From a virus, in the IMG/VR virus record IMGVR_UViG_3300034105_002198, positions 1-44,738 of that record: 44,738 nucleotides of DNA; one strand, 5' to 3'. A program made the translations under genes and the position numbers. Of this stretch, positions 154-17,484 are shown in pieces. The stretch's first letter is position 1. Each line of letters starts with the position of its first letter. The notes under the pieces are model-generated. The model worked only from the letters and a program-made list of their open reading frames with translations, made no database searches and had not been told where the DNA came from.

Positions 154-684
154 CTATGTGCTCTGCGATGCCTTAGCTCTACGCTTCTCCCATCCTTGCG
201 TTGCTGCTCGTGCGTAATTCACCCTGCTACGTTGACTCTTCTGATTGCGTGTGAAGAAAGTGAAGCGGTTGCTAAAGTCCTCCGCCACCATGCTAATCCA
301 ACACCGCGTCTTGCCTAACGCTTGGGCCATATCCTCAAGCGACACGACCTTCTCTTTCTTGGTGCGTAGCATCGTTGGTGCCAGTAGCCAAATGACTGCA
401 AGCATCCTGATCAATGCCCGATACATGCCTCGCTTACTGTCGAACTGTATGCCATCAGTGACGAAGTCCATCACCTCGTACAACAACCTCGCCGCCCTGC
501 GGTTCACTTCATCCTCCAGTTCTGATGGTAGTTCACCATTTTCGAACCATCCATTGCGTGCATCGGCAATAGCTGCAAAGTCTGGTGTGACCGTAGCCAC
601 TTGCACCATGTCGTCTGGATTGTCTAGATCGCGGACCCATGCAGAGCCTAGTTTGTTATGCTTCGATTCGTCGATGTTCTTCAT
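154..684 (-). CDS. Hypothetical protein with possible helix-turn-helix
   Basis: A 176-aa protein I cannot assign to a family. Residues about 115-140 (SLEDMAQALGKTRCWISMV...) have the spacing of a helix-turn-helix, followed by a basic tail rich in Arg, Lys and Ser, so DNA binding is plausible. It is the last gene of the minus-strand series and overlaps the stop of the upstream thymidylate-synthase-fold gene by 4 bp (ATGA), which suggests translational coupling. Downstream lies only the repeat-bearing non-coding region. It could be a regulator of late genes or a packaging accessory factor. Both roles are inference. Confidence 0.75.
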   Translation of the reverse strand: MKNIDESKHNKLGSAWVRDLDNPDDMVQVATVTPDFAAIADARNGWFENGELPSELEDEVNRRAARLLYEVMDFVTDGIQFDSKRGMYRALIRMLAVIWLLAPTMLRTKKEKVVSLEDMAQALGKTRCWISMVAEDFSNRFTFFTRNQKSQRSRVNYARAATQGWEKRRAKASQST

Positions 685-1472
685 GCTCGGATGTAATTGT
701 TGATGGCGGTTGGATTTGTGTGAAGATCGTGAAGCCAGTCGATGAACGCACTCGGGTTCTCGAAGGTCCCTAGGTTCGGCATCGTGAAGGTTGGTGTTGG
801 GTCTAGCGAACCTAACACTGCCATAGCTTTAGCTCGGTCGTCTTCATACAGATGGCATGAAGCCGCCGTCAGTGTGATGTAGCCTAGCACATCAACCTTC
901 ACTCCGGCCGCTCTAAGCCGTAGAGCCAAGTAGTGCGACAACATCGAGAAGCTGAATATGTCGTACGGCCAACCTAGCCATACATCTGAGCTACGCATGG
1001 TGTCGAAGCACTGCAGTATGCCGTCGCGCAACAACCACTGCACTGACAATGTGCACGGAATGTCTCTTGATTCTGGCGGGTTCTCACGCCAGATGTTGAT
1101 GACCGCTTGCCGTGTGTTCGGGTCTTTAACGAACGCTTGAATTACTGAGTCTAGTTGAACCGCTACCTTTGGACCGTATGCGCCGTGCAGAGTTTGTCCG
1201 TCATCGGAGAACTTCGCATAGGTCGGCGCATACGGTAGCAAGGTGCTCAGGCGATTGTCGCCTGTAATAATCCACTCCGCCTCTACCGCTGCGAACTGGT
1301 GACTGAGTTTGCGACCTGGAGTCATGACGAGCGGTGAGCTCATCGATATACAACTCTGCTGCGCGAACACTTCGAACACGGTTCGGCCTCGAGTGTGAAC
1401 TTTGTGGCCGTTTTGGAGCGTGCGGTTGAGCAACGCCAACCAGGATCGGTCAGTAGATGGGATTTGTGGCAT
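681..1472 (-). CDS. Thymidylate-synthase-fold enzyme, predicted dCMP hydroxymethylase
   Basis: A 263-aa protein of the thymidylate synthase fold, matching the length of E. coli ThyA (264 aa). Visible landmarks are Glu64 in the E-x-x-W motif, Arg121 in the phosphate-binding NTR segment, the catalytic Cys140 (DIPC), the RSSDVWLG loop at 160-167, and His207/Tyr209 (HLY). In ThyA the residue after the LGLPF loop is Asn177, which selects dUMP. Here it is Asp171 (LGWPYD). Asp at this position is the known signature of T4 dCMP hydroxymethylase, so the substrate is predicted to be dCMP with methylene-tetrahydrofolate, giving 5-hydroxymethyl-dCMP. The gene follows the P-loop kinase gene with a short gap. 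A dCMP methylase activity is the main alternative. Direct evidence is limited to sequence motifs. Confidence 0.85.
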   Translation of the reverse strand: MPQIPSTDRSWLALLNRTLQNGHKVHTRGRTVFEVFAQQSCISMSSPLVMTPGRKLSHQFAAVEAEWIITGDNRLSTLLPYAPTYAKFSDDGQTLHGAYGPKVAVQLDSVIQAFVKDPNTRQAVINIWRENPPESRDIPCTLSVQWLLRDGILQCFDTMRSSDVWLGWPYDIFSFSMLSHYLALRLRAAGVKVDVLGYITLTAASCHLYEDDRAKAMAVLGSLDPTPTFTMPNLGTFENPSAFIDWLHDLHTNPTAINNYIRA

Positions 1473-1476
1473 GGGA

Positions 1477-2490
1477 TTATCGGAGTGCGTTGATTAGGTC
1501 TTGAGGAGCGTGACCAAATTTACCTACAAACGATGGATGGTAAACATCTTTGTAAGCTACGCCGATTTGATCTAAGGTTTTGGCCGCTCGACGTCCGAGC
1601 GATATGAAGGACATCGGCTTCGCCTGACTGAGCTTCGTCAACCGTTCGATGCCATCTGTATCGTTGGCATTCACCCAGATGTAATCGAGTTCGTCGACCG
1701 CAGCATCGTGCATCGCCTTCGATACGGCACGATTCGTAGCGCTTAGAGCTGCGAACGGCCATGCAGCGCAGGATTGATCTCCGACGATCACGTGAGACGC
1801 AAACTCGTAGTGACCGAGCAGATTGTGATCGTGTAAGTCAAACTTTGCTTCTTGCCACTGGCGTTCGCGTAGCGACACCGACCGTTGGAAGCTCATCAGC
1901 GCATGTTGGGTCACGTGCGGCCCGTGGAAATCAATGTCGTACAGAGCCACATCAGGACGATCATAAAGACCTCCTTGGGCGATGATGCTCTCGACATAAT
2001 CTTGATGGACTGGACCATCGTAAGTGCGGGTACCGTAGTAGAGGTCACAGTAGAGTTTGGCGAGTTGCTCGATCTCAGGACCTGGCAAATACATTTCTTC
2101 GCGATTGCGACAACTAACCGCGTGGCGATCTACTGCCGACTTAGGGTCTGGACATGCCATGACATAGACTCCACCCAGACGACGGATGACTCGGTCTAAG
2201 CCGCGAACTTCGTAGGCCAGACCCGAACCTTTGCGGTAGACTCGGCTGTAGATGTTCTCACTCATCCAACCGCGATCGAGTATGAACGTCCGGCCAGCAC
2301 GAAGACTCGCTTCGGCCTGAAGCAACACTCGGTGATTGGCTCGATACATCTCTTGGTTATCTTTGATGTAGGTCAAGTGTTCATAGCGACTGTTTGGAAA
2401 GAGCTTTTGGATAGTTTGAGCGTAGACCGTCTTGCCGACGGCGTCTGGTCCGTCGAGGATAATGAACGCGGGTGGTTGTGTTACTTGCAT
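1477..2490 (-). CDS. Deoxynucleoside monophosphate kinase-like protein with extra C-terminal domain
   Basis: The N-terminal half is a P-loop kinase of the thymidylate kinase type. It has a Walker A loop GPDAVGKT at residues 14-21 and a DRGWMSE motif at 72-78, typical of phage dTMP/dNMP kinases. The C-terminal half (about 215-337) is a separate domain with a SLGRRAAKTL segment and a late HPS motif (about 318-320), reminiscent of the uracil-DNA-glycosylase-like domain seen at the end of some phage kinases. I chose ATG at 2490 because the longer reading frame runs deep into the Nudix gene; the remaining overlap is 10 bp. Given the dCMP-hydroxymethylase-like gene downstream, a role like T4 gp1 (phosphorylating hydroxymethyl-dCMP) is likely. 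A kinase acting on bases in DNA is an alternative. Both are inference. Confidence 0.8.
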   Translation of the reverse strand: MQVTQPPAFIILDGPDAVGKTVYAQTIQKLFPNSRYEHLTYIKDNQEMYRANHRVLLQAEASLRAGRTFILDRGWMSENIYSRVYRKGSGLAYEVRGLDRVIRRLGGVYVMACPDPKSAVDRHAVSCRNREEMYLPGPEIEQLAKLYCDLYYGTRTYDGPVHQDYVESIIAQGGLYDRPDVALYDIDFHGPHVTQHALMSFQRSVSLRERQWQEAKFDLHDHNLLGHYEFASHVIVGDQSCAAWPFAALSATNRAVSKAMHDAAVDELDYIWVNANDTDGIERLTKLSQAKPMSFISLGRRAAKTLDQIGVAYKDVYHPSFVGKFGHAPQDLINALR

Positions 2491-2987
2491 GACGCGAGGA
2501 TGTCGAGGATGGTGGAAGTGTTGGTTTTGTAGAATTCCACGAATGACTTGTGGAAACCATAATCGTCGGCGAGTGTTTCGCATTCAGAGACCGGGACGAA
2601 TTTGAATTCGTCATGTTTATCGGGTTCGCGATTGATGATGCTATCGAAGTTTTCAACGTGCAACACGAACGTCGAAATGACCCAATGGAAAGCGTCAGCT
2701 TCATTGAGCACGATATTCTCGTAGTAACCAACGAAGTGCGTGCTTTGCGGTTGGAGGTTGAACTCTTCGAGCAGTTCGCGCTTAGCACACTCGACTAAGC
2801 GTTCACCGATGTCGTGAAGCCCGCTAGGCAAACTCCAGATGTTCTTAGCACTGCGGACGTTGTTGCTGCGGTGGATGATCAGAACTCTGTCACCATCGGT
2901 GACGAGCATCTGAGCTACGGTATAGGGCGTGGCTTGGGTCAAGCGTTTCCAGTCATTGCGGGGTGGTATCATGGTGCTCTGTTTCAT
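2481..2987 (-). CDS. Nudix hydrolase
   Basis: A 168-aa protein with a complete Nudix box at residues 56-78: Gly56, Glu62, Arg70-Glu71 and Glu74-Glu75 fit G-x5-E-x7-R-E-U-x-E-E-x-G-U apart from Phe in place of the last Gly. Nudix enzymes hydrolyse nucleoside diphosphates linked to another group, including dNTPs. The substrate cannot be read from the sequence. Its place directly before the kinase and the dCMP-hydroxymethylase-like enzyme suggests nucleotide-pool control, for example removing dCTP as T4 gp56 does, or sanitising an unwanted nucleotide. The start codon overlaps the stop of the 114-aa reading frame as ATGA. Confidence 0.9.
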   Translation of the reverse strand: MKQSTMIPPRNDWKRLTQATPYTVAQMLVTDGDRVLIIHRSNNVRSAKNIWSLPSGLHDIGERLVECAKRELLEEFNLQPQSTHFVGYYENIVLNEADAFHWVISTFVLHVENFDSIINREPDKHDEFKFVPVSECETLADDYGFHKSFVEFYKTNTSTILDILASCK

Positions 2988-13796: not shown

Positions 13797-14780
13797 CTAG
13801 ACCCGCTGACAGAACGCTTCGAACTCAGACATGCCGATGGTCGATAGTGTCTCCCGCTTCTGGGTCTCTAGGTGGTCGTAACCGAACTTCGGCACGAAGC
13901 GACCCCAGTAGCGGACCGCGTCACACGCGACATCCTCGATGTCCATTGGAGCGGCCGGCGCGCCGAGAATCTTGGAGCACAGTGGCACGAGTTCATCCAT
14001 GCAAGCATCGTAGAACCCTTTGCCCTTCGTGCGATTGTCGCTGGAGAACATCGCGTTTAACGCGATCATACAGTTCGCACCGTAATGACACTGACTGAGT
14101 GGGTCCATGAACTGTGGATGCCAGTCTGCAATGTCCATGACGAATGCGGTGTATGTGAACTTGAAGCGCTTGAAGTTATTCACCACGTTGAGCTCGAGCA
14201 TCCAGTCCGTCAGACCGGCGACCGAGTGGGCGTTGCCTTCCTTCAAGTGGTCGGCAATCATTTCCACGAACGACGGCCACACTTCGCAGAAGAAGTATTT
14301 GCCGCCCTGTTCGTATGGCGCCTCAGGTTTCGGGAACGGCGGCGGTTGGTTGCCGTAGCTCGTGAACATCGGTTGCTTCCATTCTTGGATGACCTTCACC
14401 ATTTGATCAATCGTCTTGCATGTGCCGAGCGTTGGCGCGATGACGTTGCAATAACCGTGGCGACGATCGCCTTCCGACTTCGGAAAGAACGACGCACCGC
14501 TGCCAGTCATGCGATGAACTCCGTAGACGTAGAGCCACTCGTTCAGTTTCCACTTGGTGGTTGGAGCGACCTTGGCATCAATGGCGTGCAGGTCCCGCAA
14601 CACATTGCTGAATCCGGCATAGCGACGGTGCACGGTATCATAAATGCTCACGTTGTCCTGCAACGCGTCACCTGTGGCACGCTTGCGCGCACCTCGGTGG
14701 TTCTGATTCTCAAGCGCTAAGGCTCGACGGTAGTAAGCGAGGAAGTCCTTGAGGTATTCGGTGGCGACTGGGTGTTTCAT
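13797..14780 (-). CDS. aGPT-pyrophosphorylase/amino acid:DNA transferase-like protein
   Basis: A 327-aa protein that resembles, in motif order, the alpha-glutamyl/putrescinyl-thymine pyrophosphorylase family, also called amino acid:DNA transferases, which in hypermodified phages attach amino acids or amines to pyrophosphorylated 5-hydroxymethyl bases in DNA. Matching segments are FSNVLRDLHAID at 57-68, the helical stretch WKLNEWLYVYGVHR at 77-90, FTYTAFVMDIADW at 208-220 and HYGANC near 232-237. The match is from memory of the pattern, not a search, so it is tentative. It overlaps the PLP-enzyme gene by 4 bp, which supports a shared pathway. Confidence 0.55.
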   Translation of the reverse strand: MKHPVATEYLKDFLAYYRRALALENQNHRGARKRATGDALQDNVSIYDTVHRRYAGFSNVLRDLHAIDAKVAPTTKWKLNEWLYVYGVHRMTGSGASFFPKSEGDRRHGYCNVIAPTLGTCKTIDQMVKVIQEWKQPMFTSYGNQPPPFPKPEAPYEQGGKYFFCEVWPSFVEMIADHLKEGNAHSVAGLTDWMLELNVVNNFKRFKFTYTAFVMDIADWHPQFMDPLSQCHYGANCMIALNAMFSSDNRTKGKGFYDACMDELVPLCSKILGAPAAPMDIEDVACDAVRYWGRFVPKFGYDHLETQKRETLSTIGMSEFEAFCQRV

Positions 14781-15778
14781 GGGGCTAGGGTGGATGGGGC
14801 TTTGTTGTGGATGGTGTTGGTGGAGAAATCGATGTCGTCATAGAACGTGACTTTTTCGTTGAACACTCGGGTGATTCCCCATGGCGCGTTCGACTCAATG
14901 TCATACCAACGATTCGATCGAGGAGCTTCGTTGTTGGCGACGTTCCAGAACAACGCGCCTTTGGCTGCCAAGTTGGCCGCCATGTATTCCCACACCTTAG
15001 CATCATAGTTGGACGCGGATGGGAATGGAGGTTGCGTCTGAGCATCCTGGACGAACGCGCGGTGGTGACTGTAGAGTTGAGCGTAACCCTTCTCGCCGTC
15101 TTGAATGTTGCGTGACACGGCCACAGCTCGGAAGTCTGGGCCGACTACCCGCCGTTTGTTAGGTCCCCATGCGATTTGAAGGGCCCTCGAAAGAACTCCG
15201 GTGCTGATGGCCGTCCACACTTCTTTCGGAACTTTGTTAGGAGTGAACATCTGCGATGCGACTTTCACAGCAGCTGCAGTGACCAGCTCATGCTTCAGTC
15301 CAAGTGGCACGAAGAACCCACCCACGCGATCAGCGAACGCTTTCGCGGCGATGTTTAAGTTCGGCATGGCAGCGATGCGGTAGAACACAGGGCGAGCCCC
15401 GAGTTCGATGGCTCTGGCTTGATTCGGCGATATGGTTACGCATGCCGGCATGAATAGTGTGAGTTGTTTTTTGTAGGTCTTGCACAACAATGCCAAAGCA
15501 ATACCAGCGTGTCCGTAGCGAGGTGCCACATATACAATGTGTTTGGCTTTGGTCGAGCGAATCAAGAGGTCTCCGAATCGACGCTTCGTTCCGCCCTCAA
15601 CTAGGTCCTCGCGAACTACGACGTGAGGAGTGTTACTGATGGGATGACGAATCGTCTCGACGATCGGAGGCGGCAACGGATCGGTCCAGTCGCGGGCTAG
15701 GTTGAGATAGTAGTCGATGGTTTTGTCATCGCTGAGGTCACGGTTCCACACGGATGTGGTATGGTTATTGTGGGGCAT
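14777..15778 (-). CDS. Fold-type-II PLP-dependent enzyme
   Basis: A 333-aa protein related to ACC deaminase/D-cysteine desulfhydrase. REDLVEGGTKRRFGDLL at 57-72 matches the family's +DDL..GGNK.RKLE motif, so Lys65 should form the Schiff base with PLP. The next conserved stretch (VYVAPRYGHAGIALA) fits the glycine-rich phosphate-binding loop region. Such enzymes carry out beta-elimination, deamination, decarboxylation or exchange on amino acids. PLP enzymes occur in phage base-hypermodification clusters; Salmonella phage ViI uses one to decarboxylate a serine adduct on DNA. Coupling with the aGPT-like gene suggests that the substrate is an amino acid linked to DNA, or a free precursor. Substrate unknown. 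Confidence 0.7.
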   Translation of the reverse strand: MPHNNHTTSVWNRDLSDDKTIDYYLNLARDWTDPLPPPIVETIRHPISNTPHVVVREDLVEGGTKRRFGDLLIRSTKAKHIVYVAPRYGHAGIALALLCKTYKKQLTLFMPACVTISPNQARAIELGARPVFYRIAAMPNLNIAAKAFADRVGGFFVPLGLKHELVTAAAVKVASQMFTPNKVPKEVWTAISTGVLSRALQIAWGPNKRRVVGPDFRAVAVSRNIQDGEKGYAQLYSHHRAFVQDAQTQPPFPSASNYDAKVWEYMAANLAAKGALFWNVANNEAPRSNRWYDIESNAPWGITRVFNEKVTFYDDIDFSTNTIHNKAPSTLAP

Positions 15779-16085
15779 ATACTTGTTTTGTTTGGTGGAG
15801 ATGGATTCGGTACAACTCGATGTGTATCGCGTTGTAGGTGATTGTGTTTGACCGCTGCAGAACAGTTTCAGTGATGACTGTTTTCTCGTCGGCTTGCGTT
15901 ATGATTCGTAGCCAAATTTGGCCGTGGATGATTCCCATCTTAAGAGAGTCTCGTACCATTGTGTCGTACCATAGTTGAATCAACGGGCCAGCGGATTCGG
16001 ATATGACGTCGTCGTGGACGGTGCTTTTGTGTAGACACACATCCCCGGCGAGCAGTCGCATCTGCATGCGTCGACTTGACGTCAT
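15765..16085 (-). CDS. Unknown 106-aa protein in the modification cluster
   Basis: A small protein (MTSSRRMQMRLLAGDVCLHK...) that I do not recognise. The start at 16085 overlaps the SGNH gene stop as ATGA, and its end overlaps the PLP-enzyme start by 14 bp, so the genes are tightly coupled. Conserved-looking residues include HKSTVHDD near 19-26. It may be a new component of the presumed pathway. Confidence 0.65.
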   Translation of the reverse strand: MTSSRRMQMRLLAGDVCLHKSTVHDDVISESAGPLIQLWYDTMVRDSLKMGIIHGQIWLRIITQADEKTVITETVLQRSNTITYNAIHIELYRIHLHQTKQVYAPQ

Positions 16086-17074
16086 CGGAAGGCCCGATAG
16101 AACTTTGGTGCAATGTGGACGGAGCGTGGTTTCTCCATGAATTGCTGGTCGAGTTTGCCGTCGCCGAGGGCCCACTCGCACGGATGTGTGTAGAAGCTCC
16201 AGCCTGCTGACTTGCGACGGTTCACGTAGTTCTCAAGTTGTTCGTTGATGAGTTGACGAAGGTCGTCCCGCTCGGCATGGGAACCATGAAACGGCTTTCC
16301 TTTGTAGTGACCGGGTCCTGGGATCTCACGCGACTCGCATTCGATCGGAAGTAACTGCACAAGTTCGACGCGGCCGATGTTGTGCCGTTCTCGCAGTTGA
16401 CGAACTTTGGTGATAAACTTATCGACCAATGTTAATGCTGCAACGCGCGGGTTTGGTTGCCGACAGACGTGGTGACGCACGTCGATGTTGCCGAAGTAGA
16501 TCGTTAGCTCGTTGACGTCATCAGTGATGAGTTGGTCTAACGTGTCGGTAGTAGCGATGTTGTGCATCGTGCAGCCCGACAACACCTCAAGGTTGTATCC
16601 AGGACGCCACACAGATGGAGCATGCGAGTCGCCAACTACCAGTTTACCAGTTTTGCATGGGTTGCGAAACGGGACCAAACTATTAGCCACGAGGTTGTTC
16701 AGTCGGACGTGTTCGTCCTTTGTAAAGCTATCACGCCACCTTGGGTTCCACGCGAAGGCCGCATAGTCTGGCATCGGATACCACACAGGAACGATCTCGC
16801 CTTTGAAGTTTGCTAGGCGCTTGAGCTTTGTGACGTTCGGGTCGGTGACGCCTCCGAACACGTTCAACGACAGTTTGCCGTTTAGGTCGAAGCCATGGTA
16901 GAGGTAGATGCGGTCGAACTTGTTCCACTCAGCTTGTTCGCCTCCGGTCCATAGTATGTCGTGCTTCATTCGGTGGTCCGACATCATGCGCGACACGATG
17001 CGGGCAAGCCCTGAGTTGTGAGAGTGGTCACTGCTGGACAGTGCCGAGAATACAGTAGCGATGGCGTGGCTCAT
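16082..17074 (-). CDS. SGNH/GDSL-type hydrolase-like protein
   Basis: A 330-aa protein with a GDSH motif at residues 148-151 (Ser150, block I), a YFGNIDVRHHV segment at about 193-203 (block III Gly/Asn), and a late Asp...His (DQQFMEKPRSVHI, His320) as in SGNH esterases. The spacing between Asp and His is longer than the usual DxxH, so the triad is only partly certain. These enzymes remove or transfer acyl groups. Its place beside the PLP and aGPT-like genes hints at acylation or deacylation of a DNA adduct. Cell-wall or glycan modification is the alternative. Confidence 0.65.
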   Translation of the reverse strand: MSHAIATVFSALSSSDHSHNSGLARIVSRMMSDHRMKHDILWTGGEQAEWNKFDRIYLYHGFDLNGKLSLNVFGGVTDPNVTKLKRLANFKGEIVPVWYPMPDYAAFAWNPRWRDSFTKDEHVRLNNLVANSLVPFRNPCKTGKLVVGDSHAPSVWRPGYNLEVLSGCTMHNIATTDTLDQLITDDVNELTIYFGNIDVRHHVCRQPNPRVAALTLVDKFITKVRQLRERHNIGRVELVQLLPIECESREIPGPGHYKGKPFHGSHAERDDLRQLINEQLENYVNRRKSAGWSFYTHPCEWALGDGKLDQQFMEKPRSVHIAPKFYRAFR

Positions 17075-17484
17075 TATAGTATGTTGTTGAGGATTGTGTA
17101 TGTGATGATGGCCACCAGTGGCCAGATTGCGGCCACGATGGCCAGGGTGCGGTAGCGATGAGCTTTGTCCCGCGCGTCTTGTAGGGTCGACTCGTAGCCA
17201 GTTTCCACGAAGACAGGGTCAGAATCTTCGGCTCTAGACAACAGCGGAGCCGTGCGGGTCCGAGTGAAGTGAATCTCCCAGTCCATCGACATGATCTGAC
17301 GCCACGTGTCGATCGGTAGACGGCGAACCTTGCCACGGTAGAGTAGCATGATGTCAAGACTTAGCGGACGTTCGCCGATGAGTCCGACTGTGGTAACTCC
17401 GGATTGGGTGTGAAGCCGTTCCATTTGGGAGTGGCATGTGTGGAACTGGCCGTCCGTAGCCAGATTGATTTCAGATTTGATCAT
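17074..17484 (-). CDS. Small membrane-anchored protein
   Basis: A 136-aa protein with a single C-terminal hydrophobic segment (LAIVAAIWPLVAIITYTIL, about 114-132) and a soluble N-terminal region of about 110 residues. It overlaps the SGNH gene by one base (TAATG). It could anchor a cytoplasmic domain to the membrane, for example for takeover or exclusion. Function unknown. Confidence 0.7.
   Translation of the reverse strand: MIKSEINLATDGQFHTCHSQMERLHTQSGVTTVGLIGERPLSLDIMLLYRGKVRRLPIDTWRQIMSMDWEIHFTRTRTAPLLSRAEDSDPVFVETGYESTLQDARDKAHRYRTLAIVAAIWPLVAIITYTILNNIL

Follow-up and report, generated by a model that had tools for sequence, protein, structure and literature searches.

The window analysed here is the whole 44.7 kb stretch of IMG/VR virus record IMGVR_UViG_3300034105_002198 (positions 1 to 44,738). 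It carries gpA-type terminase and portal genes as well as replication genes for a pol I-like polymerase, a ligase, a helicase and an exonuclease. On the minus strand lies a cluster of four genes, named A to D; three of these, A, B and D, make up a conserved cassette that is present in hundreds of contigs from uncultured phages. A preliminary description made from the sequence had proposed that the cluster might serve the hypermodification of a DNA base. Here we present the gene content, homologies and distribution of the cassette, together with a proposed pathway on 5-hydroxymethylcytosine (hmC). The features are listed in Table 1.

Table 1. Features of the cassette region and of the nucleotide-pool gene group in the window
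Feature	Position	Strand	Length	Description
Gene A	13797..14780	-	327 aa	Helical protein of the aGPT/ADDT superfamily; proposed amino-acid transferase-like role on the hmC hydroxymethyl in DNA
Gene B	14777..15778	-	333 aa	Fold-type-II pyridoxal phosphate (PLP) enzyme, M6 gp052 type
Gene C	15765..16085	-	106 aa	Orphan open reading frame (ORF) flanked by D and B
Gene D	16082..17074	-	330 aa	SGNH-fold protein: GDSH Ser150, GNIDVRHH, His320
ORF E	17074..17484	-	136 aa	Adjoins D on its upstream side; may be co-transcribed
Pyrimidine hydroxymethylase of the thymidylate synthase (TS) family	681..1472	-		Predicted deoxycytidine monophosphate (dCMP) hydroxymethylase; PF00303, E 1e-20
P-loop dNMP kinase-like protein with possible UDG-like C-terminal part	1477..2583	-		Candidate hm-dCMP kinase; phrog_761 thymidylate kinase, E 1.5e-7
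NUDIX hydrolase	2481..2987	-		Nucleotide-pool gene group; PF00293, E 1.8e-15

Gene layout and occurrence of the cassette

The four ORFs and their tight coupling, both reported in the preliminary description, were found again: all four genes are on the minus strand, and adjacent ones overlap, D and C by 4 bp, C and B by 14 bp and B and A by 4 bp. The stop codon of ORF E shares 1 bp, the first base, with the start codon of D, so that the transcription unit may extend beyond A-D. Scans for promoters and terminators gave results at chance level. At the codon positions, the G+C content of A to D resembles the values for the polymerase and terminase genes of the window. The genes are not chance ORFs, since the combination of A, B and D homologues is seen repeatedly in independent contigs. 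Gene C, with a coding-like codon-position G+C, occurs in the window alone and has no relative among the 47,081 ORFs that the fetched loci contain in total. ORF E encodes a hydrophobic C-terminus and has no homologues among the ORFs of the fetched loci. It had been stated earlier that neither the 106-aa protein nor the SGNH-like protein has a nameable counterpart; this held for C and failed for D, homologues of which are present in cultured Aeromonas T4-like phages.

Single-protein scans of IMG/VR with A or B returned nothing, and the scan with D returned three contigs, each of which has B and A as well. An alignment of the A proteins of these three contigs, searched against IMG/VR, retrieved 195 contigs, the best 80 of which were fetched for analysis of their loci. 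A search of IMG/VR with an alignment of D retrieved at least 590 contigs. The usual operon order is TS-UDG-like-A-X-B-D, where X is a further protein family; A-B-D, D-B-A, D-A and HhH-A-X occur as variants. All well-flanked A loci contain X or D (26/26), and D is present in 34 of the 36 A loci with B, the remaining two being interrupted by contig ends. No match to A was detected in 50,697 GenBank phage records or in plasmids; consequently the complete gene set was found in no cultured phage, and an analysis of the product has probably never been made.

X is the commonest partner of A (67 of 81 A loci). The family (L016:3236-4258 and 66 similar loci) is unannotated, about 330 aa long, and contains the patterns GGTGHFDGL and E-x3-C-x3-K, which resemble those of HMUDK, the 5-hydroxymethyldeoxyuridine (5-hmdU) DNA kinase. 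X may be an hmC kinase where present; profile alignment (hhalign) with HMUDK and ADDT gave no decisive match.

Properties of the A, B and D proteins

The AlphaFold (AF2) model of A is helical, with a pLDDT of 74.9 and a pTM of 0.76. In BFVD it matches an ADDT-labelled protein (14% identity, E 5e-5, probability 1.00, TM 0.5) and, more weakly, an aGPT-Pplase1 protein, the 5-hmdU kinase of phiW-14 and an ADDT from a mycobacteriophage. In the PDB the model comes nearest to HhH-GPD glycosylases and to DUF2419, an enzyme of queuine salvage, at Z of about 9, a modest value for a helical model; Foldseek found no significant match in the PDB, and the solved ADDT chains 25qc and 8z2m are absent from the PDB matches and from the VIA list. 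A motif E282-x3-C286-x3-R290 is present in 23 of 23 A proteins. In the form E-x3-C-x3-K/R it is also found in 16 of 17 X and 49 of 69 HMUDK proteins (means in shuffled sequences 1.1 for A, 0.7 for X and 2.8 for HMUDK), and the ADDT equivalent is E-x3-C-x2-K. On the basis of predicted fold and motif we take A as a member of the aGPT/ADDT superfamily, with its reaction as a proposal. This agrees with the preliminary description, in which the protein was called aGPT- or AADT-like; a lack of structural match to that fold, named there as the outcome that would speak against the assignment, was not what the search with the AlphaFold model returned.

B matches PF00291 at E 9e-6, which is under the curated cut-off, and phrog_7093 at E 2.6e-36. 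It aligns with gp052 of phage M6 at E 8.8e-14 (hhalign), and both proteins have in common an unusual C-terminus, PPFP..YD.K.W...FWNVG. Lysine K65, in a GTK motif in the region of the PALP Schiff-base lysine, and G194 are invariant, K65 being present in 12 of 12 aligned B proteins. By homology B is thus a relative of the fold-type-II PLP enzyme gp052 of the thymidine-hypermodifying phage M6, and the earlier reading as such an enzyme with an intact Lys65 is confirmed. M6 gp052 is annotated as 'threonine dehydratase' and is encoded between the ADDT gene gp051 and the radical S-adenosylmethionine (SAM) gene gp053; according to Lee et al. it is said to act as a decarboxylase in a 5-aminoethyl-uridine pathway. 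A role of B in plain amino-acid metabolism was dropped because the genomic context is conserved.

B-type PLP domains were also observed in other surroundings. In Erythrobacter phage R6L, gp1 (L002:4648-7263) carries such a domain inserted within a ParB-like/DNA methylase polypeptide, between the apparent SAM-binding and catalytic motifs of the methylase. In Microcystis phage Mae-JY30 (L003:5743-6702) the domain adjoins ParB/sulfiredoxin genes. Both R6L and Mae-JY30 are without any TS-family gene, and the combination with a methylase may represent a third, methyltransferase-based use of the same enzyme.

D is an SGNH-fold protein by its AlphaFold (AF2) model (pLDDT 83.6), which aligns with SGNH esterases at Z 14-15 across 165-179 residues; the structural comparison bears out what had been suggested earlier for this gene, and the task of the protein is a proposal. 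Among 122 homologues, Ser150 is conserved in 121 of 121 aligned and His320 in 119. The window protein has Asn172, where 120 other homologues have Gly. D shares the fold, the GDS serine and the final histidine with SGNH hydrolases such as sialate O-acetylesterase (6xpg), PAF-AH and PatB, but differs from them by the GNIDVRHH block, the lack of the DxxH aspartate, an N-terminal extension and the company of DNA-modification genes. An aGPT-type gene lies beside D in all 34 D loci that have at least 2.5 kb on both sides (34/34). D as a tail esterase was dropped because this context is conserved.

The T4-like phages show D with varied accessory genes. The D of Aeromonas phage 31 (L004:5863-8250) is part of a fusion protein whose other domain weakly matches HMUDK_hel; that of Aeromonas phage 25 (L005:3743-7014) is encoded near a UDP-galactopyranose mutase gene. 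In T4-like contigs without A, D is accompanied by PF18723 proteins (E down to 7e-16) and inositol-phosphate synthase. Three of these (L229:7986-11800, L242:1-3920 and L250:3922-9026) encode D, a PF18723 protein and a myo-inositol-1-phosphate synthase homologue, and L250 additionally encodes a dCMP-type TS homologue; an inositol-based hmC modification is possible for these gene sets. D thus tracks an aGPT-type enzyme and hmC, not one donor, which would place it at the hmC step.

The hydroxymethylase and the thymidine-type loci

The TS-family enzyme of the window contains the segment GWPYDIFSF with Asp171, which corresponds to N177 of the E. coli enzyme, and the catalytic Cys140. Asp at position 177 is a mark of dCMP specificity and has been linked to modified-cytosine contigs in MetaGPA (PMC8670742). 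The position is occupied by Asp in 57 of 57 neighbouring TS-family proteins (31/31 in A loci, 24/24 further proteins from D loci and 2/2 from loci in metagenome-assembled genomes, the A and D locus sets partly overlapping), as in the window. It is occupied by Asn, the deoxyuridine monophosphate (dUMP) type, in 79 of 79 proteins from thymidine-type (kinase/transferase) loci. Aeromonas phages 31 and 25 each encode both kinds of enzyme; their thymidylate synthase has Asn at this position and their gp42-type enzyme has Asp. In the main clade the residue preceding the Asp is itself Asn (GYRND), so that the assignment of the column depends on the ungapped alignment; the Aeromonas gp42-type dCMP hydroxymethylase bears the same signature, GYRND.AWQ. 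Asp at 177 was found in several distant TS lineages, namely the main clade, locus L018 and the window. The Asp supports the earlier impression that the hydroxymethylase-type gene is dCMP-specific.

For comparison, 118 loci were fetched by way of M6-type HMUDK and ADDT. A, X and D occur in none of these 118 thymidine-type loci, and HMUDK and ADDT in none of the 81 A loci; searches of whole long records agree with this exclusion on each side (0/15 and 0/15). B is present in 30 thymidine-type and 36 A loci, and TS-family genes in 80 and 31, respectively. Radical SAM genes were found in 54 of the 118 thymidine-type loci, including all 30 with B, and were absent from all A loci, D loci and loci in metagenome-assembled genomes as well as from the window. 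The 5-hmdU DNA kinase (PF18723) has no match in the window, a record that may be incomplete, whereas M6, ViI and W-14 do match; HMUDK is absent from 15 of 15 long A/D-type records. ADDT (PF18724) gave no sequence match in the window or in three A-type records, whereas M6, ViI and W-14 again match. The pattern indicates that the PLP enzyme and the hydroxymethylase are common to both kinds of loci and that the DNA-acting enzymes between them differ. Together with Asp177, this mutual exclusion strongly supports the cytosine-based pathway that had been offered as a guess in the preliminary description.

The M6-type thymidine system thus resembles the cassette phages in having a TS-family hydroxymethylase, an aGPT-superfamily protein, a gp052-type PLP enzyme and a UDG-like protein. 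Its hydroxymethylase acts on dUMP and is combined with the PF18723 kinase, the PF18724 transferase and a radical SAM protein, whereas the cassette phages have Asp177, no HMUDK, ADDT or radical SAM, and instead the SGNH protein D and usually X. The T4-like hmC phages of Aeromonas (31, 25 and 44RR) share the gp42-kind dCMP hydroxymethylase and a D homologue with the cassette phages; unlike these, phages 31 and 25 gave no A or B, and the neighbour of D in phage 25 is sugar related.

Proposed pathway and alternative explanations

The cassette is probably the DNA-level part of a post-replicative hmC hypermodification with a predicted chemistry, corresponding on cytosine to what the M6-type pathway does on thymidine. 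Gene content, homology, the dCMP-type residue and the exclusion of thymidine genes were computed, and from these we infer the reactions and the final base. The TS-family enzyme would make hydroxymethyl-dCMP (hm-dCMP), which pool enzymes such as the kinase encoded next to it would raise to hm-dCTP for incorporation into DNA by the phage polymerase. A, alone or with D, would then substitute or extend the 5-hydroxymethyl group with an amino acid, as its fold, motif and gene partners suggest. B, judged by its homology, would then work on the amino acid so attached, most likely decarboxylating it, and leave an amine-bearing cytosine. D would work at the hmC stage because it accompanies aGPT-type proteins whatever the accessory genes; our guess is an activation or acyl transfer on the hydroxymethyl oxygen in place of the 5-hmdU DNA kinase, with late acyl transfer or de-esterification as an alternative role. 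The absence of radical SAM genes suggests that no M6-type rearrangement takes place, which makes an N- or O-linked amine on the cytosine methylene the likely product. Protection against restriction would be the benefit for the phage. Rather doubtful is a more far-reaching version, according to which a widespread class of uncultured phages puts amino acids on hmC via a non-ADDT transferase family, D activates the hydroxymethyl oxygen in place of the DNA kinase, and D is a common hmC-activating module for amino-acid, inositol and sugar donors.

Several observations weigh against the amino-acid pathway on hmC. A has neither a Pfam nor a PHROG match, and its profile alignments with ADDT and HMUDK (hhalign) stay below significance at P 0.08-0.33; even HMUDK and ADDT align with each other at no better than E 0.004. 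The top BFVD matches of A are A relatives bearing automatic names, so that the independent structural support consists of one good match (E 5e-5) and several weak ones. D is without the conserved DxxH aspartate: position 317 is K, Q, S or R, and E314 and S318 are kept instead. A search of the window for X was negative, the window being an A-B-D variant, and the TS-family gene lies 12 kb away from the cassette. In the TS tree the window enzyme forms a long branch, and the thymidine-type enzymes make up one side of a single branch, for which reason the Asn/Asp contrast reflects few independent evolutionary events.

It is unlikely that hmC is made and modified without an amino acid, with A and D attaching a sugar, polyol or carboxylate and B, instead of acting on DNA, turning free amino acids into a precursor. 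D also lies beside inositol-phosphate synthase and UDP-galactopyranose mutase genes, from which it follows that D systems may use different donors, and B has fold-type-II relatives in cysteine synthase. However, the closest relative of B in a known pathway is M6 gp052, and the insertion of the B core in a DNA methylase points to work on DNA. Modification of thymine via 5-hydroxymethyluracil as in M6 or ViI, with a divergent kinase and transferase, would account for the gp052 kind of B, for the ADDT-like predicted fold of A and for the UDG-like proteins of both pathways; it is held to be very unlikely in view of the Asp at 177 in all TS-family neighbours and of the missing HMUDK, ADDT and radical SAM in A/D-type loci. 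Still less credible is A as a DNA glycosylase-like repair or anti-defence enzyme in a cassette that manages modified bases and does not make them. The PDB neighbours of A (HhH-GPD glycosylases and DUF2419) and the separate HhH-GPD or UDG-like gene in many A operons fit this idea, but A has the aGPT/HMUDK motif, ADDT-type matches rank above glycosylases in BFVD, and resemblance to glycosylases may be a property of the aGPT/ADDT fold as such.

To our knowledge, all amino-acid-derived hypermodifications made via the aGPT/ADDT/PLP route are on thymine. If the hmC pathway proposed here is true, a parallel cytosine route widens natural DNA chemistry and provides new enzymes working on hmC, also an epigenetic mark in animals, in duplex DNA. 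It would further account for several hundred unannotated phage operons, and TS position 177 would predict the base decorated by a phage. The D homologues of the cultured Aeromonas phages make the pathway partly testable now. Published cytosine hypermodifications include sugars on hmC (PMC6024577, PMC12838424), carbamoyl-hmC (PMC8670742) and a glycine amide on carboxymethylcytosine (PMC12783734). The system described with MetaGPA (PMC8670742) is likewise built on 5hmC and a TS-family enzyme with Asp177, but it uses a carbamoyltransferase where ADDT-like, PLP and SGNH proteins are found here. The CmoA/CmoX/CmoY system for 5-carboxymethylcytosine-glycine (PMC12783734) also places an amino acid on a cytosine of phage DNA; it differs by its methyltransferase and amide-ligase chemistry, with no TS-family, PLP or SGNH protein described. 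A literature search, with preprints and major papers outside its scope and priority therefore uncertain, gave no paper describing an ADDT/PLP/SGNH route on hmC.

UDG-like proteins recur in A operons and in M6 (gp048) as a common component, and in the window the C-terminus of the kinase-like protein weakly matches (E 0.012) the family of UDG-like proteins present in those operons. An HhH-GPD glycosylase-like gene lies ahead of A in L035:3666-4475 and 31 similar loci, in operons that are mostly without B and D.

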